48,119 nucleotides of DNA from Thermoleophilia bacterium (lineage in GTDB: Bacteria; Actinomycetota; Thermoleophilia; Gaiellales; Gaiellaceae): assembly GCA_029865325.1 (NCBI GenBank), contig JAOUHF010000006.1, forward strand, positions 1-48,119, written 5' to 3'. Shown in pieces: positions 10,886 to 45,668 of the stretch. The first letter of the stretch is position 1; each line of letters begins with the position of its first letter. The translations under genes were made by a program, and so were the position numbers. The notes beneath the pieces are model-generated. The model had not been told where the DNA came from. It was given only the letters and a program-made list of their open reading frames with translations, and ran no database searches.

Positions 10886-10944
10886 GCGCAAGACGGGAAT
10901 CCGCCGGCGCAGATTCCGGCCACGCGAAAATCCCTGACGGCGGC
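10886..10944 (+). repeat. Dispersed 3'-UTR double-hairpin element, copy A
   Basis: Shares the core GCAAGAC-GGAATC-cgccggcgca-GATTCC and the tail ATCCCTGA-GGCGGC with copies at 15673, 27604 and 45612. The GGAATC/GATTCC arms form a hairpin. The second GCGGCCGC hairpin seen in copies B and C is degenerate here. It lies between the convergent ends of pdxH and the glycoside hydrolase gene, 6 bases from the stop of the latter. Confidence 0.75.
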
Positions 10945-10950
10945 GTCGCA

Positions 10951-12126
10951 CTACGGAGGATCGAGGGCGCCGTCGGTGTACACGCCCTCCGCGTTCCAGA
11001 GCATGAACCCCTTCGCGCCCGCCCGGCGAGCGGCATCGATCTGTGCACGCACCTGCTCGATCTCGAAGGGCGTGGTAAAGCTGAAGTCCTGCACCCAAGG
11101 CACCACGAGGACGTCCGAGCCCCGAAGCGTCGTCGAGAACCTTCCCAGCGCGCGAGAAACCGTCTCTCCGGGCGCTTGGCTCGGATCGGCAATCCCGAGC
11201 TCGCCGGGTCCGAAGAGCGACGGGTAGGTCATGGCGTACAGCGTGTCGACGTGCGGCGCCATGAGCTTGGGAAGCTGCCCGATTCCAAGGTCTCGAGCCG
11301 CTGCGAGCCCGAAAACCGCCGCCGAGATGCGAACGTCGTAGCGGTCGAGCCGGCGCACGGCATAGCGGAGGAACGCAGGCACAGCTTCTCGCTTCGTCAG
11401 CGCGCCGCGATTCCGATACACGGCGCTCTCGACGTCTCCGTCGGACGGAAACCGCACATAGTCGAACATGATCTCGTCGAAGCCGGCCCGTGCCGCGGCC
11501 GCCGCGATGTCGACGTTGTACTCCCAGACGCGCTTGTCGTATGGGTTCGTCCACCCGAGCCCCGCGGAGTCGCGCCACACGGAGCCGTCCGAACGACGTA
11601 TCGCGAGGTCGGGCCGCGCGCCGGACAGGAACGGATCTTCGAAGACCACGACGCGCCCAACCAGATAGACGTTACGCTCGTCGGCAAGTTGCGCGACAGC
11701 CCCCGGCGAGAAGAAATCTCGCGTGGCGCCGATCTTTGCGGCGAGCGGCATCCCTCGCGACGCAAACCCGACCTGGCCGTTCTCGTCCTTGACGTCGAGC
11801 TCGAGCGCCGTGAGGCCGGCGCGCTCGAGATCGAGGTACTCGTCGAGCTTGCCCGGCAGCGATGCAAGCCCCATCGAGACATGGACGCCTCTGATCTCGA
11901 CCGGGAGCGCTCGCGGTCCAGTTGACGTTGCGAGCGCGACATCCGCGCGCTCGGCAGCGCGCGGGGGAGCGCTGCCTGTGCTCACGAACTCGGCCCCAGC
12001 GCCCACCAGTGCGACGCTCGCCAGCGCGGCACCAACCGCAGCGCCACGACGCAGGCGCTTCCTGCGCCTCGCCGCAGCCCGACGCCCGCGAAACCGCTCG
12101 TTCGGGTCGATCGGTGGGAACAGCAT
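10951..12126 (-). CDS. Putative glycoside hydrolase (COG1306 / DUF4015 type)
   Basis: TIM-barrel-like protein of about 391 residues. After a basic N-terminus rich in Arg there is one hydrophobic anchor (GAAVGAALASVALVGAGAEF), then the DUF4015 blocks RGVHVSMGLASLPGKLDEY, GLTALELDVKDENGQVGF, WTNPYDKRVWEYNVDIA, AGFDEIMFDYVRFPSDGD, VDTLYAMTYPSLFGPGELG and a C-terminal GAKGFMLWNAEG. The FDYVRFP strand carries the likely catalytic Asp. Its substrate is unknown; family members are often exported wall or polysaccharide enzymes. I prefer ATG 12126. GTG 12168 would add 14 residues with a CGHC motif, with no clear Shine-Dalgarno for any candidate. Divergent from dcd, with an operator-like palindrome between. 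Confidence 0.82.
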   Translation of the reverse strand: MLFPPIDPNERFRGRRAAARRRKRLRRGAAVGAALASVALVGAGAEFVSTGSAPPRAAERADVALATSTGPRALPVEIRGVHVSMGLASLPGKLDEYLDLERAGLTALELDVKDENGQVGFASRGMPLAAKIGATRDFFSPGAVAQLADERNVYLVGRVVVFEDPFLSGARPDLAIRRSDGSVWRDSAGLGWTNPYDKRVWEYNVDIAAAAARAGFDEIMFDYVRFPSDGDVESAVYRNRGALTKREAVPAFLRYAVRRLDRYDVRISAAVFGLAAARDLGIGQLPKLMAPHVDTLYAMTYPSLFGPGELGIADPSQAPGETVSRALGRFSTTLRGSDVLVVPWVQDFSFTTPFEIEQVRAQIDAARRAGAKGFMLWNAEGVYTDGALDPP

Positions 12127-12188
12127 CGACACCGGAGCGTGGACCATATCGCAGTGACCGCAGCGCACCTGCGAGAGCGAGTGTTCGT

Positions 12189-12207
12189 TTGTGACAATTT
12201 GTCACAA
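12189..12207. promoter_or_regulatory. Perfect 9-1-9 palindromic operator-like site
   Basis: TTGTGACAATTTGTCACAA is a perfect 9-base inverted repeat around one central base. It sits in the divergent spacer between the glycoside hydrolase gene and dcd, 25 bases upstream of the dcd -10 box. The half sites TGTGA/TCACA resemble those of CRP/FNR-family proteins but are 7 rather than 6 bases apart. It is AT-richer than everything around it. Confidence 0.6.
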
Positions 12208-12231
12208 GGCGTGGCGACCCGATCGTCCATC

Positions 12232-12237
12232 TAGGAT
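12232..12237 (+). promoter_or_regulatory. Putative -10 box of dcd
   Basis: TAGGAT ends 6 bases before the GTG start of dcd. No Shine-Dalgarno lies in this gap, so a leaderless mRNA is likely. Confidence 0.45.
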
Positions 12238-12243
12238 CGCCGG

Positions 12244-12810
12244 GTGGTCCTTTCCGACCGAACGATCCGCCGACTCATCGCCGAGGGACGCATAGGGATC
12301 GAACCGTACGACCCCGGGCTCATGCAGCCGTCGAGTCTCGATGTGCGCGTCGACCGCTACTTCCGCGTCTTCCGCAACTCCCGCTATCCGTTTATCGACG
12401 TCAGGGCGCAGCAGGAGGAGCTGACCGAGCTCGTCGAGGTGACCGGCGACGAGGCGTTCATCCTCCACCCTGGCGAGTTCGTGCTCGGCTCGACGCTCGA
12501 GCGCGTGACTCTGCCGGACGACCTGGTCGCCCGCCTGGAGGGGAAATCGAGCTTAGGAAGACTAGGGCTCCTCATTCACTCGACCGCCGGCTTCATCGAT
12601 CCTGGCTGGGACGGACACGTCACTCTCGAGCTGTCGAACGTCGCAAACCTTCCGATCACGATCTATCCGGAGATGAAAATCGGCCAGATCTCGTTCGTCC
12701 AGCTCACGGAGCCGGCCGAGCGGCCGTACGGCTCGGAGGGGATCGGCTCGAAGTACCAGGGTCAGCGCGGCCCCACGCCGAGTCGTTACTGGCAAAACTT
12801 CGATCCTTGA
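12244..12810 (+). CDS. dcd: dCTP deaminase (possibly bifunctional)
   Basis: Trimeric enzyme that converts dCTP to dUTP (dUMP in the bifunctional form) for thymidylate synthesis; 188 residues, full length. It opens with [19 protein letters not shown], followed by [43 protein letters not shown], the conserved [14 protein letters not shown] and the C-terminal [14 protein letters not shown]. The GTG start is set by the family N-terminus. The stop lies one base from the stop of the convergent marR gene. Confidence 0.95.
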
Positions 12811-12811
12811 G

Positions 12812-13288
12812 CTATACGGGAGGCTCGCAGCCGATAGCGTCGGCTTCGGCAAGACGGGCGAGGAACGCGCTCAGCTCGCCGAGTTCGCCGTCGTCGAAGC
12901 GTGCCGCGAAGAAGGCGTCGATCTGCGGGAGGTGACTCTCGGAAGCCTCGCGCAACTTCGCCAGGCCTGACTCCGTGAGCACCGCGTAGACCACACGCCG
13001 ATCCGTATCGCACGAGCCGCGCTCGACGAAACCGCTCCGCTCGAGACCGTCGAGGAGCCGCGTGACGCCCGACGCCGTCAAGAGCACCTCGTCGGCGAGG
13101 TCGACCCGACGCAGGCATCTGTCCGGTGCCCAGGCAAGATGAAGCAGTACGTCGTAGTCCGCTCCGGTGAGGCCGTGGTCGGCGATCAATTGAGCGTTCA
13201 ACTGCCGTCTCGCATTCCTGTAACCACGCAGCAGCGCGACGAACGACCGGATACCTAAAGATTGCTCGCTCAATACTTGACTAGGCAT
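12812..13288 (-). CDS. MarR-family transcriptional regulator
   Basis: Winged-helix dimer of 158 residues. The N-terminal dimerisation helix precedes the helix-turn-helix, about residues 38-100 (LTGADYDVLLHL, VDLADEVLLTASGVTRLLDGL, wing CDTDRRVVYAVLTESG). An acidic helical C-terminus completes the dimer interface. It is divergent from a YceI / FMN-reductase pair, so it probably represses that unit and itself through sites in the 59-base spacer. A ligand cannot be inferred. Start ATG 13288 follows a purine-rich AGAAGAAC. Confidence 0.9.
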   Translation of the reverse strand: MPSQVLSEQSLGIRSFVALLRGYRNARRQLNAQLIADHGLTGADYDVLLHLAWAPDRCLRRVDLADEVLLTASGVTRLLDGLERSGFVERGSCDTDRRVVYAVLTESGLAKLREASESHLPQIDAFFAARFDDGELGELSAFLARLAEADAIGCEPPV

Positions 13289-13347
13289 GTTCTTCTGGCT
13301 ATTGTTGCTTGCGCACTCAATAGTAGCGGACGCAAAGGAGAGAGTCC
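13289..13347. promoter_or_regulatory. Divergent marR-yceI control region
   Basis: This 59-base spacer is AT-richer than the genes beside it. CTATTG (13299-13304) and CAATAG (13318-13323) form an inverted repeat with 13 bases between the arms, and a further CAATA lies at 13271. These are candidate MarR operator halves. AAAGGAGAGA at 13335-13344 is the Shine-Dalgarno of yceI. Confidence 0.45.
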
Positions 13348-13905
13348 ATGTCCATCCTCGCAGAGACCTCGGCCACCGTCATCCCCGCAGGAACGTGGTC
13401 GATCGACCCGGCCCACTCGGCGGTCGAGTTCCACATCAAACACCTCGGGCTTACCACGGTGAAGGGCCGCGCACCAGTCGTGAGCGGCGCCATCGAGGGT
13501 GGCGCGGAGCCGTCGATCTACGGGACGGTCGCCGCCGCCAGCATTACGACGTTCGACGAGAATCGCGACGGGCACCTGCAAGCGCCCGAGTTCTTCGACA
13601 CGGAGCGGTACCCCGAGCTCAGCTTCCGGTCGACTGAGATCGACTTCGTCGGTGACGACCTTCTGGTCGAGGGCGATCTCACGGTCAAGGGCATCACCCG
13701 GCCGGTGACGCTTCGGGGAGCCTTCGCCGGCAGCGGCGCCGACGCCTGGGGGAGCGATCGCATCGGCATCGAGCTCGAAGCGACGGTCGACAGAACGGAT
13801 TGGGAGCTCAACTGGAATGCCCCGCTCCCGGGCGGTGGCTTCCTCCTTCCCAACGACGTGAAGCTCACCGCGACATTCTCGGCGGTCAGGACAGGCCGAG
13901 CGTGA
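13348..13905 (+). CDS. YceI-family lipocalin-like protein (cytoplasmic form)
   Basis: Beta-barrel protein of 185 residues that in structural relatives binds isoprenoid or other amphipathic molecules. Family blocks are WSIDPAHSAVEFHIKHLGLTT, an acid-rich loop ITTFDENRDGHLQAPEFF, YPELSFRSTEI, GDLTVKGITRPVTL and ELNWNAPLPGGGFLLPNDVK. There is no signal peptide, unlike E. coli YceI, so it probably acts inside the cell. A strong Shine-Dalgarno supports ATG 13348. Coupled (GTGA) to the FMN reductase downstream and divergent from marR, a common redox-stress arrangement. Confidence 0.93.
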   Translation: MSILAETSATVIPAGTWSIDPAHSAVEFHIKHLGLTTVKGRAPVVSGAIEGGAEPSIYGTVAAASITTFDENRDGHLQAPEFFDTERYPELSFRSTEIDFVGDDLLVEGDLTVKGITRPVTLRGAFAGSGADAWGSDRIGIELEATVDRTDWELNWNAPLPGGGFLLPNDVKLTATFSAVRTGRA

Positions 13906-14456
13906 AGCTCCTCGCCATATCGGGCAGCCTCCGGGCGGGGTCGTATAACACGGCCCTCGCCCGGGCAGCTCGCGACCTCGCGCCCGACGGCGTGGAGGTC
14001 GAGCTCTACGACGACCTCGGCGCTCTCCCTCCGTTTGACGCGGACACGGACGGGGTCGACGAGCCCGTCGCGGTGGCTGACTTGCGACGGCGCATAGCTG
14101 CCGCGGACATGGTTCTCTTCGTCACTCCCGAGTACAACGGCTCGGTCCCCGGAGTTCTCAAGAACGCCGTGGATTGGGCGTCACGACCGCATCGCGAAGC
14201 CGCGCTTGCTGGAAAGACGGTCGCAGTGGCCGGCGCCACGCCGGGGCAGTACGGGGCGATGTGGGCGCAGCAGGATCTGCGGCGCGTGCTCGGCATCGCC
14301 GGTGCGCGCGTCATCGCCGGCGAGGTGGCGGTGCCGCGTGCGCACGAGGCGTTCGACGCCGAAGGCCGGCTCTCGAGCACTGTGATCGCCGAGCGTCTTC
14401 GAGATCACCTCGAGGCTCTCGTCGAGCACGCTCTGCCGACCGTGCTCGCAGCCTGA
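13902..14456 (+). CDS. NAD(P)H-dependent FMN reductase (flavodoxin-like fold)
   Basis: 184-residue cytoplasmic flavoprotein. The N-terminus LLAISGSLRAGSYNTALAR binds the FMN phosphate, PEYNGSVPGVLKNAVDW is the family signature, and GATPGQYGAMWAQQDLR follows. The GTG at 13902 overlaps the yceI stop (GTGA); the frame is open further upstream inside yceI, but that part has no homology. It probably reduces flavin or quinone-like substrates for the MarR-controlled response. An 11-bp stem terminator follows within 10 bases. Confidence 0.92.
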   Translation: MKLLAISGSLRAGSYNTALARAARDLAPDGVEVELYDDLGALPPFDADTDGVDEPVAVADLRRRIAAADMVLFVTPEYNGSVPGVLKNAVDWASRPHREAALAGKTVAVAGATPGQYGAMWAQQDLRRVLGIAGARVIAGEVAVPRAHEAFDAEGRLSSTVIAERLRDHLEALVEHALPTVLAA

Positions 14457-14465
14457 GAGAAACGC

Positions 14466-14492
14466 CGAGGGGCCGCACTACGCGGCCCCTCG
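14466..14492. terminator. Bidirectional stem-loop terminator
   Basis: CGAGGGGCCGC, loop ACTAC, GCGGCCCCTCG: perfect 11-bp arms. It starts 9 bases after the FMN reductase stop and also closes the minus-strand region coming from the O-methyltransferase. No long T-tract is present, which is usual in high-GC genomes. Confidence 0.75.
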
Positions 14493-14752
14493 AGACGGAT
14501 ACCAGCGATGGATTAGTAGAGGCGCTTCCGGCACTCCTCTCGCGAAGAGACGAGTGCAGCGCGAAACGCGAGCCCCCTACGCTGGCTAAGCGCTTCCCGG
14601 TGGTCCCGGGGGCACGCCTCTACCCGCTGGTACCTCCACTGCCCGTACTGTCATCACTCAAGCCGGACCACCTCCTTTCCGCGGTATCGCCAGCATACGC
14701 ACTTCGGGCGGATGGATGCATCCCGGCGATCACCCCGGTCTCGTCTGCAAGG
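14493..14752. other. Intergenic region with no full-size gene
   Basis: About 260 bases between the FMN-reductase terminator and the O-methyltransferase stop. Besides the mini-ORF locus it can fold locally on the minus strand: GCACTC(...)GAGTGC around an inner CTCT-TCG-CGAGAG at about 14528-14555, enclosed by CCAGCG/CGCTGG halves near 14585 and 14505. A small structured RNA is possible but matches no family I can name. Confidence 0.35.
14586..14680 (-). other. Mini-ORF locus with extended Shine-Dalgarno
   Basis: Read on the minus strand, AAAGGAGGTG (14678-14669) matches the 16S anti-Shine-Dalgarno over 10 bases. Nine bases after its AGGAGG core comes TTG 14661, opening a 13-codon ORF (MSDDSTGSGGTSG, stop at 14620). 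ATG 14654 in another frame opens a 22-codon Pro/Gly-rich ORF (MTVRAVEVPAGRG..., stop at 14586). It lies downstream of the O-methyltransferase and upstream of the stem-loop at 14466. The strength of the ribosome site next to no normal gene suggests a translated small peptide or a leader. I do not recognise either peptide. Confidence 0.35.
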
Positions 14753-15340
14753 TCAGCCGAGCACGACGGAGATCTCGAGGCCGCGGTCGAGTGGCACGGT
14801 GACGCTCGAGAGCGTCGCGTCCGCCTGCCGTGCTGCCGAGTACGCGGCAAGCGTCTCCACATGCGAGAGGACGTTGTCCGCAACGACCAGCCCGCCGGGC
14901 TCGAGGAGTGGCCGAGCAAGAGCGAAGAGTCGCTCATAGTCGTCCTTCTCGGCGTCGAGGAAGACGAGGTCGAAGGTGTCCTCCGTTGCCGTGAGGGTCG
15001 CAAACGCATCGCCCGCGATCAGCTCCGCCCACTCGTCGAGACCGGCTGCAGTGACATTTTCCCGCCAGGCCGTGCACTTCACCGGATCGTGCTCGAGCGA
15101 GAGAACCCGGCCGCCGAGTAGCCGAGCCCCGGAGGCCAGCCAGATGGAGGAGTAACCGCGAGACGCTCCGATCTCGAGCACCTCGATTCCGTCCTGTGAC
15201 GCGGCGAGGGCGAAGAGAAACCGTCCTGTCGTGGGCGCAATCTGACGCGAGCGCTGCGCACCCGGGACCCCGGCATCGCGCTCGGCCAAGTCTTCCTCTT
15301 CCAAGCGCGCGAGAACAGTCCGCACGCGCTCGTCGAGCAT
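14753..15340 (-). CDS. O-methyltransferase, class I SAM-dependent (COMT/CCoAMT-like family 3)
   Basis: 195-residue cytoplasmic enzyme. The SAM-binding motif is VLEIGASRGYSSIWLA, the acidic end of strand beta 2 is VLSLEHDP, and the metal-dependent family signature FDLVFLDAEKDDYERL is followed by GGLVVADNVLSHV. The last two give the Asp/Asn ligands for a divalent cation seen in catechol-type methyltransferases. The ATG at 15340 overlaps the Rieske gene stop (TGATG), so both are translated from one mRNA. The acceptor substrate is unknown. Confidence 0.9.
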   Translation of the reverse strand: MLDERVRTVLARLEEEDLAERDAGVPGAQRSRQIAPTTGRFLFALAASQDGIEVLEIGASRGYSSIWLASGARLLGGRVLSLEHDPVKCTAWRENVTAAGLDEWAELIAGDAFATLTATEDTFDLVFLDAEKDDYERLFALARPLLEPGGLVVADNVLSHVETLAAYSAARQADATLSSVTVPLDRGLEISVVLG

Positions 15341-15660
15341 CAGTCTGGAACCTCCAGCACGATGACGCCGTCCTCACGTACGGATACCGGATACGTAGGG
15401 ACAGACTCGAACGCGGGAAGCGTCATCGGGATGCCCGTCTGCAGATCGAAGCGCGCCCCGTGGCGAGGGCAGACGACGATGCAGAGCTCAGGCTCCCAAT
15501 CTCCTTCACAGAGGGGCCCGTCGTCGTGCGAACAACGATCCTCGATCGCGTAGAGGGCACCGGCGCAGTTGAAGACGCCGATCGTGAGGGCGCCGGCCGG
15601 GACGAGCCGCATCGACCCGGGCGGAAGCTCCTCGACCGAGCCGACCTCGATCTCCGCCAC
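15340..15660 (-). CDS. Rieske [2Fe-2S] ferredoxin-like protein
   Basis: Small soluble Rieske protein of about 106 residues. Both cluster loops are intact: CSHDDGPL (C-x-H) and CPRHGARFD (C-x2-H). This is the size of NirD- or dioxygenase-type ferredoxins that pass electrons to an oxygenase or reductase, none of which lies nearby. I start at GTG 15660. TTG 15678 is in frame, but it lies inside the repeat element and adds only six unconserved residues. Position after sufU suggests it is matured by the same Suf machinery. Confidence 0.87.
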   Translation of the reverse strand: MAEIEVGSVEELPPGSMRLVPAGALTIGVFNCAGALYAIEDRCSHDDGPLCEGDWEPELCIVVCPRHGARFDLQTGIPMTLPAFESVPTYPVSVREDGVIVLEVPD

Positions 15661-15672
15661 TACTCGTACCCC

Positions 15673-15746
15673 GCGCAAGACCGGAATCCGCTAGCGCAGA
15701 TTCCGGTCGCGCACACATCCCTGAAGGCGGCCGCATAGCGGCCGCG
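15673..15746 (+). repeat. Dispersed 3'-UTR double-hairpin element, copy B (best copy)
   Basis: Most complete copy. GACCGGAATC (15679-15688) and GATTCCGGTC (15699-15708) form a 10-bp stem whose loop contains the palindrome CGCTAGCG. CCCTGAAGGC follows, then a second hairpin GCGGCCGC-ATA-GCGGCCGC (15728-15746). It lies 28 bases after the sufU stop codon, in the orientation opposite to sufU. Confidence 0.8.
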
Positions 15747-15774
15747 ATGTTCGCGTTCTACCGGATGCAATGGT

Positions 15775-16209
15775 TCACTCGAGCACCAGGTCGCGCGACG
15801 CCGTGCCCCACTCCTCGGGAAGCGGCGTTCCTTTCGCCTTGTGCAACGCCAGCTTCAGGACGCCGAGCCCGAGGATCGCGCATTTCAGCCGAACCGGCGT
15901 CAGGGGAATGCCGAGCTCGTCGAGGAGCTCCTGGGACGGCATCGCTGCTACTTGCTGCGCAGTTCGGCCCTTCACGAGGTCGCTGAGCATCGACGTCGCC
16001 GCCTGGCTGATCGCGCAGCCGCGGCCGTCGAATCCGACCTCGTCGATGACGTCGCCGTCTCCAAAGCGCACGGTCACCGCGAGCTCGTCTCCGCAGAGCG
16101 GGTTCTGACCCTCGGCGTGAGCGTCGGCTGGATCCAGCAGCCCGTGGTTTCGCGGGTTCTTGTAGTGGTCCAGGATGAGCTCGCGATAGAGCTGATCGAA
16201 CTCGCTCAT
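15775..16209 (-). CDS. sufU: Fe-S cluster assembly scaffold / sulfur acceptor SufU
   Basis: 144-residue partner of SufS that accepts persulfide sulfur. It begins MSEFDQLYRELILDHYKNPR and has the three conserved cysteines C39 (CGDE, with D41), C65 (GRGCAIS) and C110 (RLKCAILG). ATG 16209 lies 2 bases after the sufS stop; the frame is open further upstream but carries no SufU homology. The 45-residue gap between C65 and C110 is shorter than in B. subtilis SufU, which has an insertion there, and is closer to IscU spacing. Confidence 0.93.
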   Translation of the reverse strand: MSEFDQLYRELILDHYKNPRNHGLLDPADAHAEGQNPLCGDELAVTVRFGDGDVIDEVGFDGRGCAISQAATSMLSDLVKGRTAQQVAAMPSQELLDELGIPLTPVRLKCAILGLGVLKLALHKAKGTPLPEEWGTASRDLVLE

Positions 16210-16211
16210 CG

Positions 16212-17456
16212 CTACCCGAGGCTCGTCTTGGCTTTCACGAGGCCTTCGACCAGCCGGTCGACCTCTTCCTGGATCGAGTAGAGGTAGAAGCTCGCGCGGA
16301 TCGTCGCGCTCACCCCGAGCTTCGTCATTAGGGGTTGCGTGCAGTGATGGCCGGCGCGCACGGCGACACCCTCCCAGTCGAGCACTTGGGCGACATCGTG
16401 CGGATGGACACCCTCGACGTTCAGGGAGACGATCCCAGCGCGCCGCTCGGGCGGAGGCCCGTACGTGTCGATCCAAGGAAGCTCTCCGAGGCGTCCCAGC
16501 GTGTACTCGAGGAGCCCGCGCTCGTGCTGCTCGATTGCGCCGAGCCCGACCTCGGAAACGTAGTCGATCGCGGCTCCGAACCCGACCGCCTCGGCAATCG
16601 CGGGCGTCCCGGCCTCGAACTTGTAGGGAAGCTCATTCCACGTCGTGCGCTCGGCGGAAACCGAGCGGATCATCTCGCCGCCGAGGTTGAAGGGCGACAT
16701 CGCCTCGAGCAGCTCGCGGCGCCCCCACAGTGCGCCGATGCCGCTCGGGCCGCACATCTTGTGGGAGGAGAGCGCCAGGAACTCGCAATCGAGAGCCTGC
16801 ACGTCGAGGTGGCGGTGAGGAGCGGCCTGCGCGGCGTCGACAACCATGATGGCGCCGCGCTCGTGTGCCCAGGCCGCGAGAGCCTGTACAGGATTGACGG
16901 TCCCGAGCGTATTCGACACGAGGTTCGACGCGACGACCTTCACATTCCCTTGGCGCTCGATCTCGTCGAGGGCGTCGAGGCGAAGCTCACCACCTTCGTC
17001 GATGGGGATGACGCAGAACGTGGCACCGGTTCGCCCTGCGGCGTACTGCCACGGGACGAAGCTCGAGTGGTGCTCCAGATCGGTGACGACGACCACATCG
17101 CCCTCTTCTAGGTTGTCGAGCCCCCAGGCGTACGCAACGAGATTGAGCGCCTCCGTGGCGCTCCGGGTGAAGATCACCTCGCGCTCGGACGGCGCGTTGA
17201 CATATGACGCGACCTTGCGGCGCGCGCCTTCGTAGCCAGTGGTCGCGCGCTCGGCAAGGCGATACACGCCGCGATGCACGTTGGCGTACGAGTGCTCGTA
17301 GAAGTCGCGCATCGCATCGAGCACTTGGCGCGGCTTCTGCGTCGAAGCGGCGGAGTCGAGGTAGGCCACGGGCTTTCCGTTGACAAGCTCTTCGAACACC
17401 GCGAAGTCCGTCCGCAGACGCTCGGCGTCGAGCTTCGAATGTGTCGCGACGGCCAC
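16212..17456 (-). CDS. sufS: Cysteine desulfurase SufS
   Basis: PLP-dependent enzyme that takes sulfur from cysteine for Fe-S assembly; 414 residues from GTG 17456. The PLP lysine lies in SSHKMCGPSGIGALWG, the cofactor Asp/Gln pair in VVDAAQAAPH, and the active cysteine C372 in RAGHHCTQPLM, the SufS (group II) form. The upstream-open frame to 17582 would overlap the LON-domain gene and has no homology, so GTG 17456 (VAVATHSKLDAERLRTDF) is chosen. It precedes sufU directly, the standard SufS-SufU pair. Confidence 0.94.
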   Translation of the reverse strand: MAVATHSKLDAERLRTDFAVFEELVNGKPVAYLDSAASTQKPRQVLDAMRDFYEHSYANVHRGVYRLAERATTGYEGARRKVASYVNAPSEREVIFTRSATEALNLVAYAWGLDNLEEGDVVVVTDLEHHSSFVPWQYAAGRTGATFCVIPIDEGGELRLDALDEIERQGNVKVVASNLVSNTLGTVNPVQALAAWAHERGAIMVVDAAQAAPHRHLDVQALDCEFLALSSHKMCGPSGIGALWGRRELLEAMSPFNLGGEMIRSVSAERTTWNELPYKFEAGTPAIAEAVGFGAAIDYVSEVGLGAIEQHERGLLEYTLGRLGELPWIDTYGPPPERRAGIVSLNVEGVHPHDVAQVLDWEGVAVRAGHHCTQPLMTKLGVSATIRASFYLYSIQEEVDRLVEGLVKAKTSLG

Positions 17457-17484
17457 GAGCGCATGGTACCCCTGGCCACGCGAC

Positions 17485-18096
17485 TCACCCCAGATGGACT
17501 CGGCCGTTCGTCGCCGCTCGCTCGGCAGCGCCCCGAACGCGCCGAGCCGTGGCGATCGCGTGCTCGAGCAGATCGCACACACGAGCCATGCGGCTCCGCT
17601 CGGACACGTCCCTCAGGAGCTCGAGCTTGTCCACAGGCGGGAGCTCGACTCGCCCAGCGAGAACGAAGGAGAGCCGCACGGCATCCGCCTCGGGCAGGTC
17701 GACATCGCTTCCCGTGAGCTCGCGCAAGCGATCGAAGAGATCGAGCGCCCGTTCGATCGACTTCGCCTCGGCGGGGTCCTTCTCGTCCTCGACGGGCACC
17801 ACCTCGCCCGTGTAAAAGCTCCGTCCGGCCGTGAGTTCGAGGAGCCTGAACCGATCCCCGCCTTCGACAAGGATGTCCATGCGTCCGTCCACCATTCGAG
17901 CGAGCACTTCGGTGACGCTTGCGCGTGTTCCGACGTCACGAAGTCCGTCATCGTCCGCGTAGACGAGCCCGAATTCGTTGCCCGAGTCGAGGCACTCGCC
18001 GATGAGCTCCCGATACCGCTCTTCGAAGATGTGCAGCGGAACCCGCTCGGTTGGGAGTAGCACCAGCGGCAGCGGGAAGAGCCCGAGCTCGGTCAT
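17485..18096 (-). CDS. LON N-terminal (substrate-binding) domain protein
   Basis: 203-residue stand-alone LON-N (PUA-like) domain without the ATPase or protease parts. Marks are LGLFPLPLVLLPTERVPLHIFEERYRELI at the N-terminus, GDRFRLLEL in the middle, and a helical C-terminus. ATG 18096 overlaps the stop of the upstream methyltransferase (ATGA), so the longer GTG 18120 start is unlikely. Proteins of this type (COG2802) have no firm function; roles as an adaptor or in substrate recognition are proposed from the Lon protease domain. Confidence 0.88.
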   Translation of the reverse strand: MTELGLFPLPLVLLPTERVPLHIFEERYRELIGECLDSGNEFGLVYADDDGLRDVGTRASVTEVLARMVDGRMDILVEGGDRFRLLELTAGRSFYTGEVVPVEDEKDPAEAKSIERALDLFDRLRELTGSDVDLPEADAVRLSFVLAGRVELPPVDKLELLRDVSERSRMARVCDLLEHAIATARRVRGAAERAATNGRVHLG

Positions 18097-18743
18097 ACCG
18101 CACGCCGCAATGTCGCCCACTGCCAGAGCCTGCTTCCATCACCCTCCCGAACGTGAACCCCCTCGGCCTCGGCCGCAGCGAACAGCTCCGCCGGCCGATG
18201 AACGAAAACTCTGAACGGGCTGCGCATGATCCAGAGACTCGCGTTCAGCATGCGTACCCCCGCTCTGATCCAGAAGACATCGCGCGGAAAGCTGAGCACG
18301 AGCGCTTGTCGAGCAAGTCTCCCAGCCGCGGCGGCGAGAGCGACCCCGTCGGGCGAACAGCACACGACGCGGTTGAGGACGACGACGTCGGCCGGCTCGA
18401 CACGGTCAGGCTCCTCGAGAATGTCCACGATGTGAAACGCAGTTCGTGCTTCGTGGCCCTTCTCGCGGGCGAGCTCGCGCGCATACGGCTCATACGACGA
18501 GACGAGCTCGATGATCTCGCCCTCCCCGGCGCCGGCGTCGAGGAGCTCCGCCTGAATGCGACCGATGCCGCCGCCGATCTCCAGTACACGCAAGCCGTCG
18601 ATCGTGCCCGTCGCGGAAGCGCTCGCGACCATCTGACGCTCCAAGGCGTCGAGCCCCTTTCGCCGGTATGTCTCGAGACTCCGGCGCGCAACGCTCGGCT
18701 TGAAAAACTGCTCGCACGACCCGGCGCGGCAACAGCTCGTCAC
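18093..18743 (-). CDS. SAM-dependent methyltransferase with N-terminal Cys cluster
   Basis: About 216 residues. An N-terminal CC-x3-C motif precedes KPSVARRSLETYRRKGLDALERQ, then the SAM motif VLEIGGGIGRIQAELL, DVVVLNRVVCCSPDG and LVLSFPRD. This arrangement is that of an actinobacterial methyltransferase family related to Mg-protoporphyrin O-methyltransferases; the substrate is unknown. A TATCGT box at 18756-18751 favours GTG 18743 (7-base gap, leaderless) over GTG 18752, which overlaps the box. It is coupled to the LON-N gene and separated from GYD by a strong terminator. Confidence 0.82.
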   Translation of the reverse strand: MTSCCRAGSCEQFFKPSVARRSLETYRRKGLDALERQMVASASATGTIDGLRVLEIGGGIGRIQAELLDAGAGEGEIIELVSSYEPYARELAREKGHEARTAFHIVDILEEPDRVEPADVVVLNRVVCCSPDGVALAAAAGRLARQALVLSFPRDVFWIRAGVRMLNASLWIMRSPFRVFVHRPAELFAAAEAEGVHVREGDGSRLWQWATLRRAV

Positions 18744-18756
18744 GCCGGCCACGATA

Positions 18757-18786
18757 CAAGGCTGCCCCCGGGTGGGGGCAGCCTTG
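18757..18786 (-). terminator. Stem-loop terminator after the GYD gene
   Basis: CAAGGCTGCCCCC, loop GGGT, GGGGGCAGCCTTG: perfect 13-bp arms with a 4-base loop. It lies 23 bases after the GYD stop and just before the methyltransferase promoter, so it splits the long minus-strand gene row into two transcription units. Confidence 0.85.
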
Positions 18787-18809
18787 GTGCGCGTATGCGG
18801 CAGTTCAGC

Positions 18810-19094
18810 TCAGACGAGCGCCTTGAAGAAGACGTCCACCTTCTCGGCGGGGAACGTCTCGGTCTTCACGACCTCGAGCATCCCGATCTTGGCGAGCACG
18901 CGGAACGCGGTCTCGTTGTCCGGATACTTGACGATCGCGAGGAAGTCCCACGGCCCCATTACCGCGTAAACGTCCTCGAGCAGACCGCCTTCTTCCTCGA
19001 TGATCGCAGTGATCTTCTCGAGGTACTTGGGGGCCTCGTGGAGCTTCTCCTGGCCCTCGTCGGTGAGCTGAATCAGCCCGACGTACGTGAACAC
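18810..19094 (-). CDS. GYD domain protein
   Basis: 94-residue alpha/beta protein. FTYVGLIQLTDEGQEKLHEA, then KYLEKITAIIEEEGGLLEDV, VMGPWDFLAIVKYPDNETAF and KTETFPAEKV follow the GYD (PF08734) ferredoxin-like pattern, with GPWD where the family name motif GYD lies. Function is unknown; the fold resembles Lrp/AsnC ligand domains but there is no DNA-binding part. A very strong AAGGAGGTG precedes GTG 19094 by 6 bases, suggesting high expression. A terminator follows. Confidence 0.87.
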   Translation of the reverse strand: MFTYVGLIQLTDEGQEKLHEAPKYLEKITAIIEEEGGLLEDVYAVMGPWDFLAIVKYPDNETAFRVLAKIGMLEVVKTETFPAEKVDVFFKALV

Positions 19095-19182
19095 GCCACA
19101 CCTCCTTGTGGGTGGTCAGGTTCAGCGGCCAGCGTCTCAAACGCGCGGCAACGCAGCATCGGGGAACTCCCTGATCTCTGGA

Positions 19183-19581
19183 TCAGGACGCTCGTTCGAG
19201 ATCGAGCGCGCACGAGTTGATGCAGTAGCGCTGGCCCGTCGGCTGGGGCCCGTCGTCGAAGAGGTGGCCGAGATGGCCACCGCACGACGCGCACATCACC
19301 TCGGTGCGAATCATCCCGTAGCTCGTGTCCGTTTCCGTGATGACGCTGTCGAGTGCCGACGGTTCGAAGAAGCTCGGCCAGCCGGAGCCCGACTCGAACT
19401 TCGTGTCCGAGCGGAAGAGCTCCGCGCCGCAGCCGGCGCAACGGTAGATACCGGACGCGTGCTCGTCCCAGAATGCCCCTGTGAAGGCCCGTTCCGTGCC
19501 CTTGCGTCGCAAGATCTCGTACTGCTCGTGAGTGAGCCGGGCGCGCCACTCCTCCTCGCTGAGCTGCATCTTGGTCTTCAT
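19183..19581 (-). CDS. msrB: Peptide-methionine (R)-S-oxide reductase
   Basis: 132-residue repair enzyme that reduces methionine-R-sulfoxide in proteins. It has the zinc pairs CAGC and CASC, the block [23 protein letters not shown] and the catalytic cysteine in RYCINSCAL. Resolving cysteine use is not clear from the sequence. A TACCCT box ending 6 bases before ATG 19581 suggests its own leaderless transcript. Its place next to suf genes fits an oxidative-stress theme. Confidence 0.95.
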
Positions 19582-19604
19582 GAGCCGAGGGTACCGCTTC
19601 GAGC

Positions 19605-20243
19605 TCAGAGCACGACGAGTGAGAGGGCGATGAACTGCGTCGCGGCCGCTGCTACGACGAGCAAATGGAAGATCTCGTGGAAGCCGAGCGTGGCCGGAAA
19701 GGGATTCGGCCAGGTGGTGGCATACGCGAGCGCGCCGACGCTATAGAGAACGCCGCCGACGATCACCAGCACCGCAGCCGCGACACCCAGCGCCGGAAAG
19801 AGCTGGGGAATCAGGATGAGACCGACCCACCCGACTGCGAGGTAGGCTACAGCCGAGAGCCAGCGTGGCGCATCGATCCAGACCAGGTTCAGGGCGATCC
19901 CGAGCATCGCCCCTGCCCAGACCGTGACGAGACCCACGACGCGAGCGGTCCCGCCGAACGCGACCAACGAAAACGCGGTGTAGGTGCCGGCGATGAAGAC
20001 GAAGATCATCGCGTGGTCGAGCCGGCGAGCGCGAAGCCGCGCGGTCGAGCTCCGCCACGGAAAGCGGTGGTAGAGGGCGCTGGCACCGAACATCGCGGCG
20101 AGCGCGGCGGCGTAGACCCAGACCGCGAAACGCTCGAGGTAGCCATCGGCGAAGACGACGAGAGCCGTGCCGGCAAAGACGGCGGCGACCAACGCGTACT
20201 GGTGAAAGACGCCACGCAGGCGAGGCACCGGCACCTGCTCCAT
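19605..20243 (-). CDS. Hemolysin III / PAQR-family membrane protein
   Basis: 212-residue protein with about seven membrane helices. The metal-site motifs of the family are present: SALYHR near helix 2, [17 protein letters not shown], and [10 protein letters not shown] near the C-terminus. These His and Asp residues form the hydrolase-like zinc site of the PAQR/CREST superfamily. Despite the name, haemolysis is not its expected job; bacterial members affect membrane lipid homeostasis. It lies between sufD and msrB on the same strand. Confidence 0.92.
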
Positions 20244-20266
20244 CGCTCGATTCTGCCCGATCGAGG

Positions 20267-24377: not shown

Positions 24378-24466
24378 ACGAAAAGGATCTCGCTTACCGT
24401 GGACCGGCAGTAGGTGTCCCGCCTGCTCGCATGGTAGCCGGACCTGGTTCAGCGTCGGCGCGGTGG

Positions 24467-24472
24467 TATCGT
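24467..24472 (+). promoter_or_regulatory. Putative -10 box of tatA
   Basis: TATCGT ends 6 bases before ATG 24479 and there is no Shine-Dalgarno in the gap, consistent with a leaderless tatA transcript. Confidence 0.35.
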
Positions 24473-25534: not shown

Positions 25535-26826
25535 AAGTCCTGTCTGCGAACTGGGTGGTCCCAGTGGAGGGACCGCCAATCCGTGATGGCGCCGTTGCGA
25601 TCGAAGATGGGACGATCGTTGCAGTCGGACCAGCCGCGCAGCTCGGCGCAGGCGAGCGCTACCGTGACGCGGTAATCCTCCCTGGCTTCGTAAACGCACA
25701 TAGCCACCTCGAGTACGCGGTCTACGCGGGTTTCGGCGACGGGCTTCCGTTCTCCGACTGGATCGGTCTGCACGTCCAGCGCAAGCGGCAAATCGACCTG
25801 AAGGACGCGGAGGCGATCGCGCGATTCGGTGCGCTCGAGTGCCTGCGTTCTGGGATCACGACAGTCGGAGACTGCAGCTTCAGCGGCGCTGCCGCGACCG
25901 GCTGCGCCGACCTCGGGCTGCGCGCGACGATCTACCTCGAGGTGTTCGGAGAGACGCCCGACGTCTTGTCCGACCGCTTCGACCCCATGCTCGAGCGCAT
26001 CTCCGACACGCTGTCCGACACGATACGGGTGGGGGTCTCACCGCACGCCCCGTACACATGCTCGCTTGCACTCTACGACGCGTGCGCCGCACTCGGGATG
26101 CCGACCGCAACGCACCTCGCCGAGAGCGAAGCGGAGACCAACTTCCTCCAGACAGGCTCGGGAGCGTGGGAGGCCTTTGCGGACATGCTCGTCGAGCCCC
26201 CCGGGACGACGGGCGTACGCGCGCTCGCCGAGGAAGGCGTGCTCGGGCCTAACCTGCTCGCCGCCCACTGCGTCCAGGTAGACGAGGAGGAGATCGCGCT
26301 GCTGGCCGAGCACGACGTCGCGGTCGCCCACTGCCCCCGCTCGAACGCGCTTCTCGGGTGCGGCATCGCACCGCTGACGGCTCTGCGCGCTGCTGGAATC
26401 CGGGTCTGCATCGCCACCGACAGCCCCGCTTCGACGCCCTCGTTCGACATGTTCGACGAGATGCGGGCCGCAATCTCCGGTGCACGGGCACGTGAGCGTC
26501 GCCCCGACGCACTCACTGCAGCGGATGCGCTCGAGCTTGCGACGCTCGGAGGTGCGCGCGCCCTCGGCCTCGCCAACGAGCTCGGCTCGCTCCTCCCTGG
26601 AAAGAGCGCCGATCTGACAGTCTTGTCGCTCGCCGAAACGTCATTCATCCCATGGGAAGATCCGGTTACGGCGGCGGTTCTCGGAGGCTCCCCCCAACAC
26701 GTCGTCGCTACTCTCGTGTCCGGTGAAACGCGGTATGAGAAGGGAGGGAAGACATGGCTCGAGCTGATCGACGCAGCGCACAGCGCCCGCGGCCGGCTTC
26801 TGTCACACGCAAACCCGACGTCGTGA
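25531..26826 (+). CDS. Amidohydrolase, aminodeoxyfutalosine deaminase-like
   Basis: 431-residue metal-dependent hydrolase. Metal ligands are visible in PGFVNAHSHLEYAV, SPHAPYTCSLALYDAC, HLAESEAETNFL, AAHCVQVDEEE and ATDSPAS. The HLAESEAE-x-NFL and SPHAPYT blocks are those of the MqnX/SAH-deaminase branch, so deamination of 6-amino-6-deoxyfutalosine in the alternative menaquinone pathway is possible. A neighbouring mqn gene would be needed to support this and none is in the window. GTG 25531 is set by the overlap with tatC; the frame is open into tatC but without homology. Confidence 0.85.
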   Translation: MKVLSANWVVPVEGPPIRDGAVAIEDGTIVAVGPAAQLGAGERYRDAVILPGFVNAHSHLEYAVYAGFGDGLPFSDWIGLHVQRKRQIDLKDAEAIARFGALECLRSGITTVGDCSFSGAAATGCADLGLRATIYLEVFGETPDVLSDRFDPMLERISDTLSDTIRVGVSPHAPYTCSLALYDACAALGMPTATHLAESEAETNFLQTGSGAWEAFADMLVEPPGTTGVRALAEEGVLGPNLLAAHCVQVDEEEIALLAEHDVAVAHCPRSNALLGCGIAPLTALRAAGIRVCIATDSPASTPSFDMFDEMRAAISGARARERRPDALTAADALELATLGGARALGLANELGSLLPGKSADLTVLSLAETSFIPWEDPVTAAVLGGSPQHVVATLVSGETRYEKGGKTWLELIDAAHSARGRLLSHANPTS

Positions 26827-27584
26827 TCGAGGACACCATGTTCTTCCCGCGTCTTCGCCGGCACGCGAAGTGGATGTTTCTGTTCCTCGCCGTCGCGTTC
26901 GGGCTCGGCTTCGTGGGATTCGGGGTCGGAGCCGGAGGTGTTGGCGTCGGCGACGTCTTCAGGGGGCAGGGTGGAGGGAGTGGCGTGCCCTCGATCTCCA
27001 AGTCCGAACAGCGCGTCCTCGACAACCCGAAGGATGCGCAGGCATTCCGCGATCTCGCCACCGCTCACCAGGCGGCCGGAAACACCGATGACGCAATCGA
27101 AGCTCTCGAGAACTTCGTCGCGCTGCGGCCACGCAACGCCGACGTCTTGCGCGAGCTCGCCGGTTTGTACCTCGCAAAAGCGAGCGAGGCGCAGCAGCGC
27201 GGCCAGATTGCCGACTACCGAGCCGCCTTTTTGGCGCCGGGGACTGCAGTGGCAGGCGCGATCCAGCTCGGCGGCAGGCCGGTCGATCCGGACCCGATCT
27301 CACAGGCGGTCAGCGGGCAGATCACCGGGGACAGCTCTGCGGCGTACTTCGAGGCGCAGCAGGCATCGGCGAACGCCGTCGACACGTATCGGCGGATCAC
27401 CGTGGTGCTGCCGAAGGATCCGAGCGTTCAGCTCGAGCTGGCACAGGCTGCTCAGAGTGCGGGGGACACGGCAACCGTGATCGCCGCGTACGAAGCGTTC
27501 CTGAAGATCGCGCCGGACGATCCGACTGCGGTCGAGGTACGGCGTCTTCTGAAGCAGCTCCGTCAGTTCGGCCAGACCGGCTGA
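26754..27584 (+). CDS. TPR-containing membrane-anchored protein
   Basis: 276-residue protein. A basic N-terminus is followed by one membrane helix (about residues 40-60, WMFLFLAVAFGLGFVGFGVG), a Gly-rich linker and TPR-like helices: QAFRDLATAHQAAGNTDDAI at about 96-115, ADVLRELAGLYLAKASEAQQ, and SVQLELAQAAQSAGDTATVI near the C-terminus. ATG 26754 follows a good GGGAGGGAA site but overlaps the amidohydrolase by 73 bases; GTG 26823 (GTGA overlap) is the alternative. It probably scaffolds other envelope proteins. Copy C of the 3' element follows 19 bases after the stop. Confidence 0.82.
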   Translation: MARADRRSAQRPRPASVTRKPDVVIEDTMFFPRLRRHAKWMFLFLAVAFGLGFVGFGVGAGGVGVGDVFRGQGGGSGVPSISKSEQRVLDNPKDAQAFRDLATAHQAAGNTDDAIEALENFVALRPRNADVLRELAGLYLAKASEAQQRGQIADYRAAFLAPGTAVAGAIQLGGRPVDPDPISQAVSGQITGDSSAAYFEAQQASANAVDTYRRITVVLPKDPSVQLELAQAAQSAGDTATVIAAYEAFLKIAPDDPTAVEVRRLLKQLRQFGQTG

Positions 27585-27603
27585 GAGAGACTTCGAATTG
27601 CCG

Positions 27604-27674
27604 GCGGCCGCTAAGCGGCCGCCTTCAGGACTTCGCAAGACCGAGATACCGCGCTAGCGGATCCCGGTCCTGCG
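27604..27674 (-). repeat. Dispersed 3'-UTR double-hairpin element, copy C
   Basis: In gene sense it opens with the hairpin GCGGCCGC-TAA-GCGGCCGC, then CTTCAGGA, then the GACCGAGAT / GGATCCCGGTC stem around CGCTAGCG. It is inverted on the map relative to copies A, B and D, but the same way round relative to the gene whose stop precedes it (the TPR gene). Confidence 0.75.
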
Positions 27675-27683
27675 CCAGGTGGT

Positions 27684-43937: not shown

Positions 43938-45538
43938 CCGGTCACTGCCAACGTTGGCGATACTCCGGCAGCGAGACCTCCGGTGGCCGCGATACGGGCT
44001 CGATAGCTCCCGGGCGCGAGCGTGAGCTCGGCTCGAAAAGCACCGCTGCTATCCACCGTTGCCTGCCCCACGCGGATCCAGCTCGAGCCGCTCCTCTGCT
44101 CGAGCGAGACGGCGGCGCCGGCAAGCTTGGGACGAACAGTTCCGGTGACTGCGCCGGGCTCGGCCGCACGTACGAGCCGCAACCGAGGAGTGACCTTCAC
44201 GAGCAACGCCGGCGAAGCCGCGCTCGCGACCTCGATCCGGTAGCGCGTGGTTCGAACCGCCTTCACGGTGGCCGTGACGCTCCCGTTGGCCTCTGGCGCC
44301 AGCATGCCCGCCTGCGTCCACACGGCTCCGTCGGCGGACGATGCGAGGAGAGGCGATTCGAGGCCGCGGCTGAGCCCGCGTAGCCGAACGCTCGATCCGA
44401 ACACGAGTGGCCCGCTCGGACGATCGAGTCGGAGGATTCCGATCGTGAGCCAGGTGGAGCGGAGCCCCAGCGCGGTGCGCAGGAGCGATGCAGGCACCGC
44501 CTCCGATCCGGTCGTCGTCACGACGGTCAGCGAGCGAAGGCGGCCGGACGGGGTCGTGGTACCCGTTGCATCGAGGACGCGTGCGCCGACGCCGAGCTTC
44601 GCCTGAACCGTGCGAGCTCCGAGGAGGACCGGCCCCCAACGATGGTAGGGCGAGAGCTTGTCCCATGGGTCCGGCCGAGACACGAGGTATGGGATGGCAG
44701 CTCCGAAGACGTCGGCCGCGCTCGCCGTCTTCCCGCCCGACGTCGAGAAGTACAGCGTGGATGCAACCTTGCCGCCATAGAGCGCGACTTCGCCTGCCGT
44801 CGACCGCACGGCCTCCGTTGCCGCGGGCTTCTCACCGGCAACGCCGAGGTAGACCTGGCTGCGAACGTCCGCGTAGAGGTCGAAGGGCTTCCCTTTGACC
44901 AGGTTCGCGAGCGCGTACGAGCGCGCCGCGACCGCCTGCGCGCGGAGCGCATCGAGCGGCCACGAGCTGGGCATCTCGCCCGGGACGACCCCTTGGAGGT
45001 AGCTCCCGAGGCCAGTGAAGTTCACCACCCGCAGATACCCACCCTGTGCGCTGACCTGGAGGCTCCCTCGATATAGACGACCATCGAGGGAAAGCGGCGT
45101 CGCCTTTCCGGGCCGTACGACCAGTGGGGACACGGCGACTACCAGCCCCTCCAGAGTCGGCAGCTCGAGATTCGAGCGGAGCGTGAGCGGGCCTGCGGGA
45201 AGCTTGTAGATCTCCCCGGTTGCGTCACGGATCGTGAACGGGACCGTCGAGGCGACAGTGACTGCCCGCCGGCCCTCGGCCAGGAGCACGCGAACTTCCT
45301 TCGTGGGGGCGAGGCCGAGCTCAATCCCCGTGTAGTAGTGGCGAAGGATCTCGTCGTAGCTGTAACCCGCCTTCGCCATGCCGTACGCCCCGTACTGGCT
45401 CATGCCCACGCCGTGGCCGTAGCCCTTTCCGGAGACGACGAACAACGCCTCGCCAGGAGTCGCGGCCGGTGGAGCAGGCTGCGCCGACGCGGTCGCAGCG
45501 ACCACGGTAGACATCAGAAGGGCCAATACAAGACGCAC
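43934..45538 (-). CDS. SpoIID/LytB-domain protein (peptidoglycan lytic transglycosylase or amidase enhancer)
   Basis: 534-residue exported protein with an N-terminal signal (LVLALLMSTVVAATASAQPA). The SpoIID domain (about 33-330) has VSGKGYGHGVGMSQYGAYGM, GSYLQGVVPGEMPSSWPLDA, RAQAVAARSYALANL and TLYFSTSGGKTASAADVF. Two or more Ig-like modules follow. The conserved E of PGEMPS is the expected catalytic residue. Outside sporulating Firmicutes these proteins remodel peptidoglycan in the wall. GTG start; TAGCCT lies 10 bases upstream. Confidence 0.92.
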   Translation of the reverse strand: MRLVLALLMSTVVAATASAQPAPPAATPGEALFVVSGKGYGHGVGMSQYGAYGMAKAGYSYDEILRHYYTGIELGLAPTKEVRVLLAEGRRAVTVASTVPFTIRDATGEIYKLPAGPLTLRSNLELPTLEGLVVAVSPLVVRPGKATPLSLDGRLYRGSLQVSAQGGYLRVVNFTGLGSYLQGVVPGEMPSSWPLDALRAQAVAARSYALANLVKGKPFDLYADVRSQVYLGVAGEKPAATEAVRSTAGEVALYGGKVASTLYFSTSGGKTASAADVFGAAIPYLVSRPDPWDKLSPYHRWGPVLLGARTVQAKLGVGARVLDATGTTTPSGRLRSLTVVTTTGSEAVPASLLRTALGLRSTWLTIGILRLDRPSGPLVFGSSVRLRGLSRGLESPLLASSADGAVWTQAGMLAPEANGSVTATVKAVRTTRYRIEVASAASPALLVKVTPRLRLVRAAEPGAVTGTVRPKLAGAAVSLEQRSGSSWIRVGQATVDSSGAFRAELTLAPGSYRARIAATGGLAAGVSPTLAVTG

Positions 45539-45548
45539 GGACAGGATC

Positions 45549-45554
45549 AGGCTA
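45549..45554 (-). promoter_or_regulatory. Putative -10 box of the SpoIID-subtilase unit
   Basis: On the minus strand TAGCCT ends 10 bases before GTG 45538, giving a leader of only a few bases. Confidence 0.35.
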
Positions 45555-45611
45555 GCTCCGCAGGGTTAACTCTTTGTGTTCTCGGCAGCTTGGCGAAGGC
45601 CTTGAGCGCTG

Positions 45612-45668
45612 AGCAAGGCCGGAATCCGCTCGCGCCGATTCCGATCGCGCGGAATACCCCTGAAGGCA
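45612..45668 (+). repeat. Dispersed 3'-UTR double-hairpin element, copy D
   Basis: AGCAAGGCCGGAATCCGCT, then CGCGCCGATTCCGATCGCGC, then ACCCCTGAAGGC. The first stem (GGCCGGAATC/GATTCCGATC) is kept; the GCGGCCGC hairpin is lost. It lies 48 bases after the rfbB stop, opposite in direction to rfbB, as copies A-C are to their genes. Confidence 0.7.

Follow-up and report, generated by a model that had tools for sequence, protein, structure and literature searches.

A two-hairpin palindromic repeat of probable mobile kind at gene ends in Gaiellaceae

Described palindromic repeats and the Gaiellaceae element

Repetitive extragenic palindromes (REPs) mostly adjoin, at a distance of <20 bp, the 3′ ends of genes that run co-directionally or converge; their termini can supply stop codons, and some lie in-frame in genes, and one class, the CGTC REPs, is described as being without a dedicated transposase (PMC3733652). 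Here we describe a repeat found four times in a 48,119-nt stretch of a Thermoleophilia bacterium genome (contig JAOUHF010000006.1, positions 1 to 48,119; hereafter the window). Its host belongs to the Gaiellaceae, which are placed in Actinomycetota, Thermoleophilia. The element is a ~105 bp insertion with two hairpins that occurs in both orientations and prefers gene ends. We regard it as, most probably, a small mobile palindrome that is non-autonomous, belongs to the REP or miniature inverted-repeat transposable element (MITE) kind and is tolerated mainly at gene 3′ ends.

The element is like REPs in being a dispersed palindrome, in its 3′-end placement, in supplying stops and in having in-gene copies. 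It is like the CGTC REPs in having no copies near genes of the REP-associated tyrosine transposase (RAYT) type. REPs (REPINs and BIMEs included) are hairpins of 20-40 bp, often head-to-head dimers, with an unpaired tag, whereas the element has two unlike hairpins in fixed order, a conserved linker, no tag and a ~105 bp insert (PMC3733652). On inspection of the consensus, neither stem bears GTAG/GTGG or CGTC at its foot, and the combination that marks the CGTC REPs (CGTC tag, 8-9 bp stem opening with A-T pairs, 4-5 nt loop, CCA tail) is not seen either.

Three other families, treated in one survey, are comparable. RPE (105-146 bp, palindromic, intergenic and also in-frame in conserved genes) is like the element in size, in palindromic build and in having both intergenic and in-frame in-gene copies (4 of 172 loci here). 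It is listed with 12-bp terminal inverted repeats, whereas the element has none by consensus inspection, its leader and its ...TTGCGC end not being complementary; the element's in-gene copies are rare and its host phylum is unrelated, the two being compared by description only (PMC2229807). The Caulobacter CIR shares with the element a size of ~110 bp, two stem-loop arms with a linker, intergenic placement and the presence of GANTC. In CIR, GANTC is at or in the terminal loop, stops occur in six frames and copies in genes are not reported, whereas in the element GANTC is in the paired stem and several frames are open (PMC2229807). Yersinia YPAL/RU-2 has filled and empty sites; the element is like it in lacking terminal TA, in its internal inverted repeats, in filled/empty differences and in a possible effect on upstream mRNA, but YPAL is ~168 bp long with target duplications of 3-26 bp, and the element shows no clear duplication (PMC2229807).

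We call the element a new family of a known, REP/MITE-like kind. Like that kind in the broad sense, it is made up of short, scattered copies that code for nothing of their own, and orthologous sites occur both filled and empty; it fits in behaviour, and lacks the tag, the terminal repeats and the linked transposase of the named subgroups. YPAL/RU-2 copies, too, reportedly lie after genes (De Gregorio 2006). A narrow literature look for Gaiellales palindromic repeats and Thermoleophilia miniature inverted repeats found no description, which is no proof of the family being undescribed. With it, stop-hugging palindromic mobile elements would be extended to a little-studied actinobacterial class.

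Structure, spread and insertion of the repeat

The conserved core is 76 nt long. In gene sense its consensus reads GCGGCCGC-GAA-GCGGMCGC, then the conserved linker CTTCAGGGATNTTC, then GCGC-GACCGGAATCCGC-(GCTA or similar)-GCGGATTCCGGTC-TT-GCGC. The first hairpin has 8 bp and the second up to 17 bp with a two-base bulge. The inserted unit, ~105 bp net, comprises the core and a weakly conserved leader of ~28 nt on its 5′ side. With ≤2 mismatches allowed, 17 of 122 leaders contain the word TGATGTGAAA, compared with counts of 1, 0 and 0 for control windows. A reading of the window made earlier from the sequence alone (the sequence-only reading) had drawn two hairpins and a TTGCGC end; stem 2 and the inserted unit turn out longer than it drew them.

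The repeat is a dispersed family, beyond chance. After a pattern search, a covariance model was built from 35 copies of this genus, the four window copies included; the genome counts that follow are lower bounds, 150 candidates being scored per genus genome and 37 per order genome. The window genome (a 2.59-Mb draft in 192 contigs) has at least 71 matches at E ≤ 1, the weakest of which include partial antisense echoes, and at least 38 at E ≤ 1.2e-4, training copies included (150 of 3589 first-look candidates scored). All 11 genus genomes (own included; 53-97% complete) have matches at E ≤ 0.01, numbering 85, 81, 54, 52, 49, 45, 40, 24, 16, 4 and 1. Such a range within one genus makes it a good place to seek the mobilising enzyme of untagged repeats. 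Order-wide (E 1e-5, stricter filters), matches are found in 23 of 129 genomes and 6 of 42 genera, all in one family, which replaces a first pattern-search impression that the repeat was restricted to the genus. The one pattern match in another family (G035, L026) was rejected, giving just a 10.8-bit nhmmer alignment. The model was applied within the order and, beyond it, to motif-holding stretches of a second collection (30 of 61 searched), where it gives 65-88 bits in two 'Thermoleophilia bacterium' metagenome-assembled genomes (L363, L369, L332); the coordinates of L363 are those of G081:C263, from another genus. In Rfam 15 (E up to 5) no listed match overlaps any copy.

The copies of the window, all four of which were confirmed in the sequence where the sequence-only reading had placed them, and the parts of copy 2 are as follows:

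10885..10959, minus strand: copy 1, second hairpin present and first decayed, between convergent genes; 59.5 bits (training row)
15672..15747, minus strand: copy 2, core with both hairpins intact, following the sufU/NifU_N gene; 91.5 bits (training row)
15727..15745, minus strand: stem 1 of copy 2, GCGGCCGC-TAT-GCGGCCGC
15673..15714, minus strand: stem 2 of copy 2, 13-bp GACCGGAATCTGC/GCGGATTCCGGTC, loop GCTA, short GC-rich foot
15748..15774, minus strand: leader of copy 2, from the sufU stop to the core, counted as inserted DNA by comparison with empty junctions
27602..27676, plus strand: copy 3, full two-hairpin core, in the gap between a TPR gene and a cytochrome c gene; 63.4 bits (training row)
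45610..45686, minus strand: copy 4, first hairpin decayed, after a GDP_Man_Dehyd/Epimerase (rfbB-like) gene; 66.8 bits (training row)

Insertion is seen by comparing the same gene junctions among relatives. At the sufU junction (copy 2), 111-126 nt lie between the aligned flanks in the window genome. Of the relatives in which both flanks were recovered (G001-G007 and G010), 8 of 8 have an empty junction, its gap measuring -4 to 22 nt; G008 and G009 yielded no sufU junction. The single-contig genome G007 is without the element at all four window junctions, with gaps of 12, 52, 60 and 161 nt against 126, 115, 121 and 259 nt, and cmsearch of those G007 stretches finds no copy. The comparison for copy 4 is the weakest alignment of the four, its right flank being 67% identical with 150 nt unaligned. 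Six clean cases elsewhere give empty against filled gaps (nt) of 5/112 (#26), 5/109 (#80), 10/112 (#116), 3/113 (#131), 5/113 (#154) and 3/107 (#162), and the net gain over these and the sufU site is 101-118 bp; other junction comparisons are looser, e.g., 24-55 against 119-156 nt. By these alignments the window copies are insertions. A mobile element at gene ends, one of the options that the sequence-only reading had offered, is thus supported by the empty junctions, the copy-number range of 1 to 85 and the stop-proximal placement. Gene junctions that carry the element in one species and lack it in a related one, some of them in essential operons (e.g., rplO-secY), amount to a clean natural experiment.

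Model scores of the four window copies (E 1e-9 to 4e-16) are high by construction, the copies being among the 35 training rows; since they sat in the training set, independent support comes from the other copies and from covariation. Measured against shuffled sequence, the folds of copies 2 and 3 are much the more stable (z -5.54 and -5.27), whereas those of copies 1 and 4 are no better than it (z -0.81 and -0.75) because their first hairpin has decayed. The double hairpin once ascribed to all four copies is therefore intact in two of them.

Covariation is strong. On a MAFFT alignment that was not structure-fitted, 90.5% of cells pair, and pairing falls to 31-40% when the partner is shifted by 1-3 columns. 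Changes on both sides are seen at 16 of 25 pairs, against a shuffle mean of 6.0, none of 500 shuffles being as high. Compensatory changes, whose lack the sequence-only reading had named as a sign against its proposal, are thus abundant.

Orientation, gene ends and competing explanations

Placement was classified for 172 independent loci, into which 196 matches of at least 40 bits were resolved. The loci are a sample, made up of the best-listed matches and 20 stretches from a peptide-search list, in which strong copies are over-represented. Genes were called by a simple codon-usage caller, which missed at least the RmlD open reading frame (ORF) at 46729-47628; at L126 a call inside an antisense ORF was overridden by hand, and antisense calls overlap the element at four loci (L053, L102, L165 and L318). 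Orientation counts exclude hits below 40 bits and the 18 edge loci, and P-values are uncorrected for multiple tests.

In gaps between co-directional genes, 65 copies are sense and 36 antisense; 41 loci are convergent, 8 divergent, 4 in genes and 18 undecided at edges. The single polarity relative to the gene that the window had suggested is accordingly not general, with 36 of 101 co-directional loci antisense, and was an effect of small sample; copy 1, between convergent genes, is in any case uninformative on polarity, so that three of the four window copies count. An apparently fixed gene orientation can thus arise from a small sample in a compact genome. Random orientation or copies inside genes had also been named as signs against a role tied to gene ends, and here the outcome is mixed: orientation is biased, not fixed, and 4 of 172 loci lie inside genes.

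The recurrent feature is a stop codon close by, at either end of the element. At least one gene ends towards the element in 142 of the 150 classified intergenic loci. Divergent gaps hold 8 of 150 copies, compared with 109 of 768 gaps in 800 kb of G007 (109 divergent, 109 convergent and 550 co-directional, the last with a median of 4 nt). In 68 of 77 loci a stop that faces the 3′ end of the element is no more than 12 nt away, mostly at 0-10 nt; for stops that face its 5′ end, the distance to the core is at most 45 nt in 91 of 106. Many of the latter fall in the leader, which therefore supplies the stop. Nearness to stops needs no targeting, because empty gaps are often only a few nucleotides wide.

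In the explanation we favour, the mobile repeat would be moved in trans by an enzyme encoded elsewhere, which perhaps recognises a folded single strand or acts on single-stranded DNA. Recognition of a folded strand is suggested by the lack of terminal inverted repeats, the lack of clear target duplication and the hairpins near both ends. That copies persist mainly at gene 3′ ends would then be due to the scarcity of other free space in these genomes and to the removal of promoter insertions. The upstream gene often takes its stop codon from the leader or the junction, and with the sense frame open through most copies, one can occasionally survive in-frame inside a gene.

Several results weigh against this explanation. 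No linked transposase was found, the search being for one candidate class, RAYT/IS200-type (PF01797). This class has 10 matches, spread over 6 of the 11 genus genomes, and the nine stretches that hold them contain no copy, some genomes being incomplete. Target duplication does not clearly exceed chance: a shared flanking word of ≥6 is found in 13 of 122 copies against 9.4 ± 3.0 on permutation, and the mean shared word is 4.33 against 4.16 ± 0.09 (array members and copies below 60 bits left out). None of the dispersed pairs sampled within single genomes is near-identical (best core identity 0.84 to 0.94, 8 genomes), which gives no hint of very recent movement. Finally, the sense excess of 65:36 is significant (p = 0.005), though far from a rule, and could mean a selected function beyond parasitism; so could the compensatory excess at shared junctions described next.

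Such a function is at the centre of a possible, if unlikely, alternative, in which the repeat is a cis-acting RNA element of 3′ untranslated regions or gene junctions, selected for protecting or processing mRNA 3′ ends, and mobility accounts for its origin only. The stem covariation and the sense bias favour it. So does the excess of G-U over A-C in the sense strand (42:19 on the sequence-based alignment, where asymmetry at unpaired sites is small, with C>T at 19/210 and G>A at 12/175), as expected if one strand folds as RNA or single-stranded DNA. A second, larger alignment yields 83:17, but unpaired sites there show more C>T as well (77/612 vs 24/510), which confounds the ratio. Seven junctions are occupied in two species; in these, both partners changed in 10 base pairs (2.7 expected) and pairing was lost in 17 (37 expected), none of 2000 simulations being as extreme; this covers 7 of 14 pairs, omitting three further pairs of the L054/L100 site, two L153/L001 pairs and two array-derived pairs. 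We do not lean on this test, because independent insertion or gene conversion is possible and the shared junctions are not proven single insertions: element identity there is 0.65-0.89, and of four shared pairs with genomes compared, two are above the 95th percentile of random copies and two are not. Against a cis-acting RNA speak the antisense third or so of co-directional loci (36 of 101), the spread from 1 to 85 copies among relatives, and the decay of hairpin 1 in two of four window copies. It is rather doubtful, too, that once inserted the bipartite hairpin is kept folded by sense-strand selection as a gene-junction module, one that supplies the upstream stop, shields the upstream mRNA end in either orientation and is translatable in one frame as a neutral peptide bridging or extending genes. 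If true, that would make it a non-proteobacterial counterpart of RPE and YPAL with a measurable RNA role.

The placement could also reflect insertion machinery that is site-specific for stop codons (e.g., for a CTA/TAG-containing target), with no selective sieving. The close spacing of 3′-facing stops fits this, as does an enrichment of TAG among them (38/68 vs 141/398; p = 0.002, one of three tests), which is a hint of target preference only. Single sites suggest duplication as well: CGAGT at sufU, CTAGGA at L033, GCTAAGGG at L144 and 14 bp at L053. But TAG is not enriched among 5′-facing stops (35/92, p = 0.63; both sides together 71/154, p = 0.025), no target duplication is clear overall, gaps of a few nucleotides place any insertion near a stop, and four copies lie inside genes. 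We hold such targeting to be improbable.

That the element is a REP proper, moved by a resident RAYT (TnpA-REP), is quite improbable. It would account for the hairpins, the lack of terminal inverted repeats and the 3′-end placement, and RAYT-like proteins do occur in several genus genomes; but neither stem foot has the tags of REPs, no copy lies around RAYT-type genes, and G001, G002, G003, G006 and G008 have no PF01797 match, G002, G003 and G008 among them carrying 49-54 element matches in incomplete (53-69%) genomes. As a separate observation, several diverse Y1 (RAYT-like) genes are found in the genus, at G000:C162:16360-16650 (window genome) and in L118-L125.

An ordinary set of intrinsic terminators, a function that the sequence-only reading had entertained for these stable GC-rich hairpins just past stop codons, is very improbable, because the next start codon is within 50 nt in 49 of the 65 sense copies in co-directional gaps (one of them between rplO and secY) and a scan of 10001-28000 shows no terminator-like site or T-tract at copies 1-3 (copy 4 lying outside it), to which may be added that none of 113 copies has a T-run after TTGCGC and that the element is missing from orthologous junctions.

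Neighbouring genes, in-gene copies and minor observations

The genes flanking the window copies, named by their position in element sense, are:

10951..12168, minus strand: ORF upstream of copy 1, DUF4015 putative glycosyl hydrolase
10294..10884, plus strand: convergent gene with its stop at the 3′ end of copy 1, pyridoxamine 5′-phosphate oxidase family
15775..16476, minus strand: ORF upstream of copy 2, NifU_N (sufU)
26754..27584, plus strand: ORF upstream of copy 3, TPR repeats
45717..47090, minus strand: ORF upstream of copy 4, GDP_Man_Dehyd/Epimerase

Their ends at 10951, 15775, 27584 and 45717 agree with the stop distances of 6, 28, 19 and 48 bases given earlier. Copy 1 abuts both convergent genes, one at each end, and the next called start after copy 2 is 11 nt away.

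The four in-gene loci carry the core in-frame, all in the same strand and frame, with a peptide like AAAKRTPSGIFARPESALADSGLAH:

L032: Lhr-type helicase, insert between the DEAD and Helicase_C domains
L152: Gfo/Idh/MocA oxidoreductase, insert inside one domain match
L020: GMP synthase, insert near the N-terminus
L058: kynureninase-like enzyme, insert near the N-terminus

In two of the four, Pfam domains match on both sides of the insert, and it is on domain matches that insertion in these genes rests, since no uninterrupted close orthologue spanning the insert was found for them in the DNA compared. The N-terminal cases (L020, L058) may be start-codon artefacts. None of 23 further matches, in the 20 stretches from the peptide-search list, lies inside a called gene.

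A coding element was discarded as a general explanation: over 110 anchored copies of at least 60 bits (31 further copies without an anchor match were left out), anchor-to-end lengths fall in all three phases (66, 23 and 21), and the frame is not conserved among intergenic copies. Most of these copies are in any case open in two sense frames (97 and 99 copies) and in two of the antisense ones (96 and 101). Peptide searches with the gene frame and with the other open sense frame give, e.g., 22 vs 21 matches in the window genome and 57 vs 56 in G009; with such similar numbers, the open frame is no evidence of coding. At L009 (1868-2071; G000 C155), a 67-codon open frame made up of two tandem copies lies between the gene for ribosomal L15 (rplO) and secY; its ATG overlaps the L15 stop (ATGA), and its TAG immediately precedes the ATG of secY.

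GANTC sites lie within paired stem 2, not in the loop; 135 of 172 loci have them, against a background of 0.18-0.28 per 76 nt. It is slightly above independent resampling of the stem pairs (94 of 102 rows vs 89.2 ± 2.0, 8/500; 169 in total vs 152 ± 3.7, 0/500). A link to CcrM was rejected, a CcrM-type RAMA domain being found in just 1 of 11 genus genomes (G009). We read GANTC as a by-product of the stem sequence, with no link to CIR.

Copies also stand in direct tandem arrays of up to six, at L015 (1824-2281), L126 (1780-2277), L127, L019 and L163, with units such as 77-80, 94-105, 114 and 125 bp. Array spacing is 104-105 bp in 6 of 20 cases; the others range from 56 to 143 bp, with one of 272. 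A longer variant is seen in the window genome at L013 (~1976-2111, minus strand) and L014 (1215-1380, plus strand), where the first hairpin and CCTTCAGGGA run into extra GCGAAGC-type hairpins, followed at L013 by a stem-2-like end; this joining pattern occurs twice in the window genome and not in the 10 other genus genomes.

Two other hairpin-like features were noted in the window. At 14465-14493 (minus strand) there is a 13-bp terminator-like hairpin with a T-rich tail, not related to the repeat element. A strong inverted repeat in the RmlD-like ORF or close to it is suggested at 46738-46789, where unrelated microRNA precursors give sub-threshold Rfam matches on both strands.

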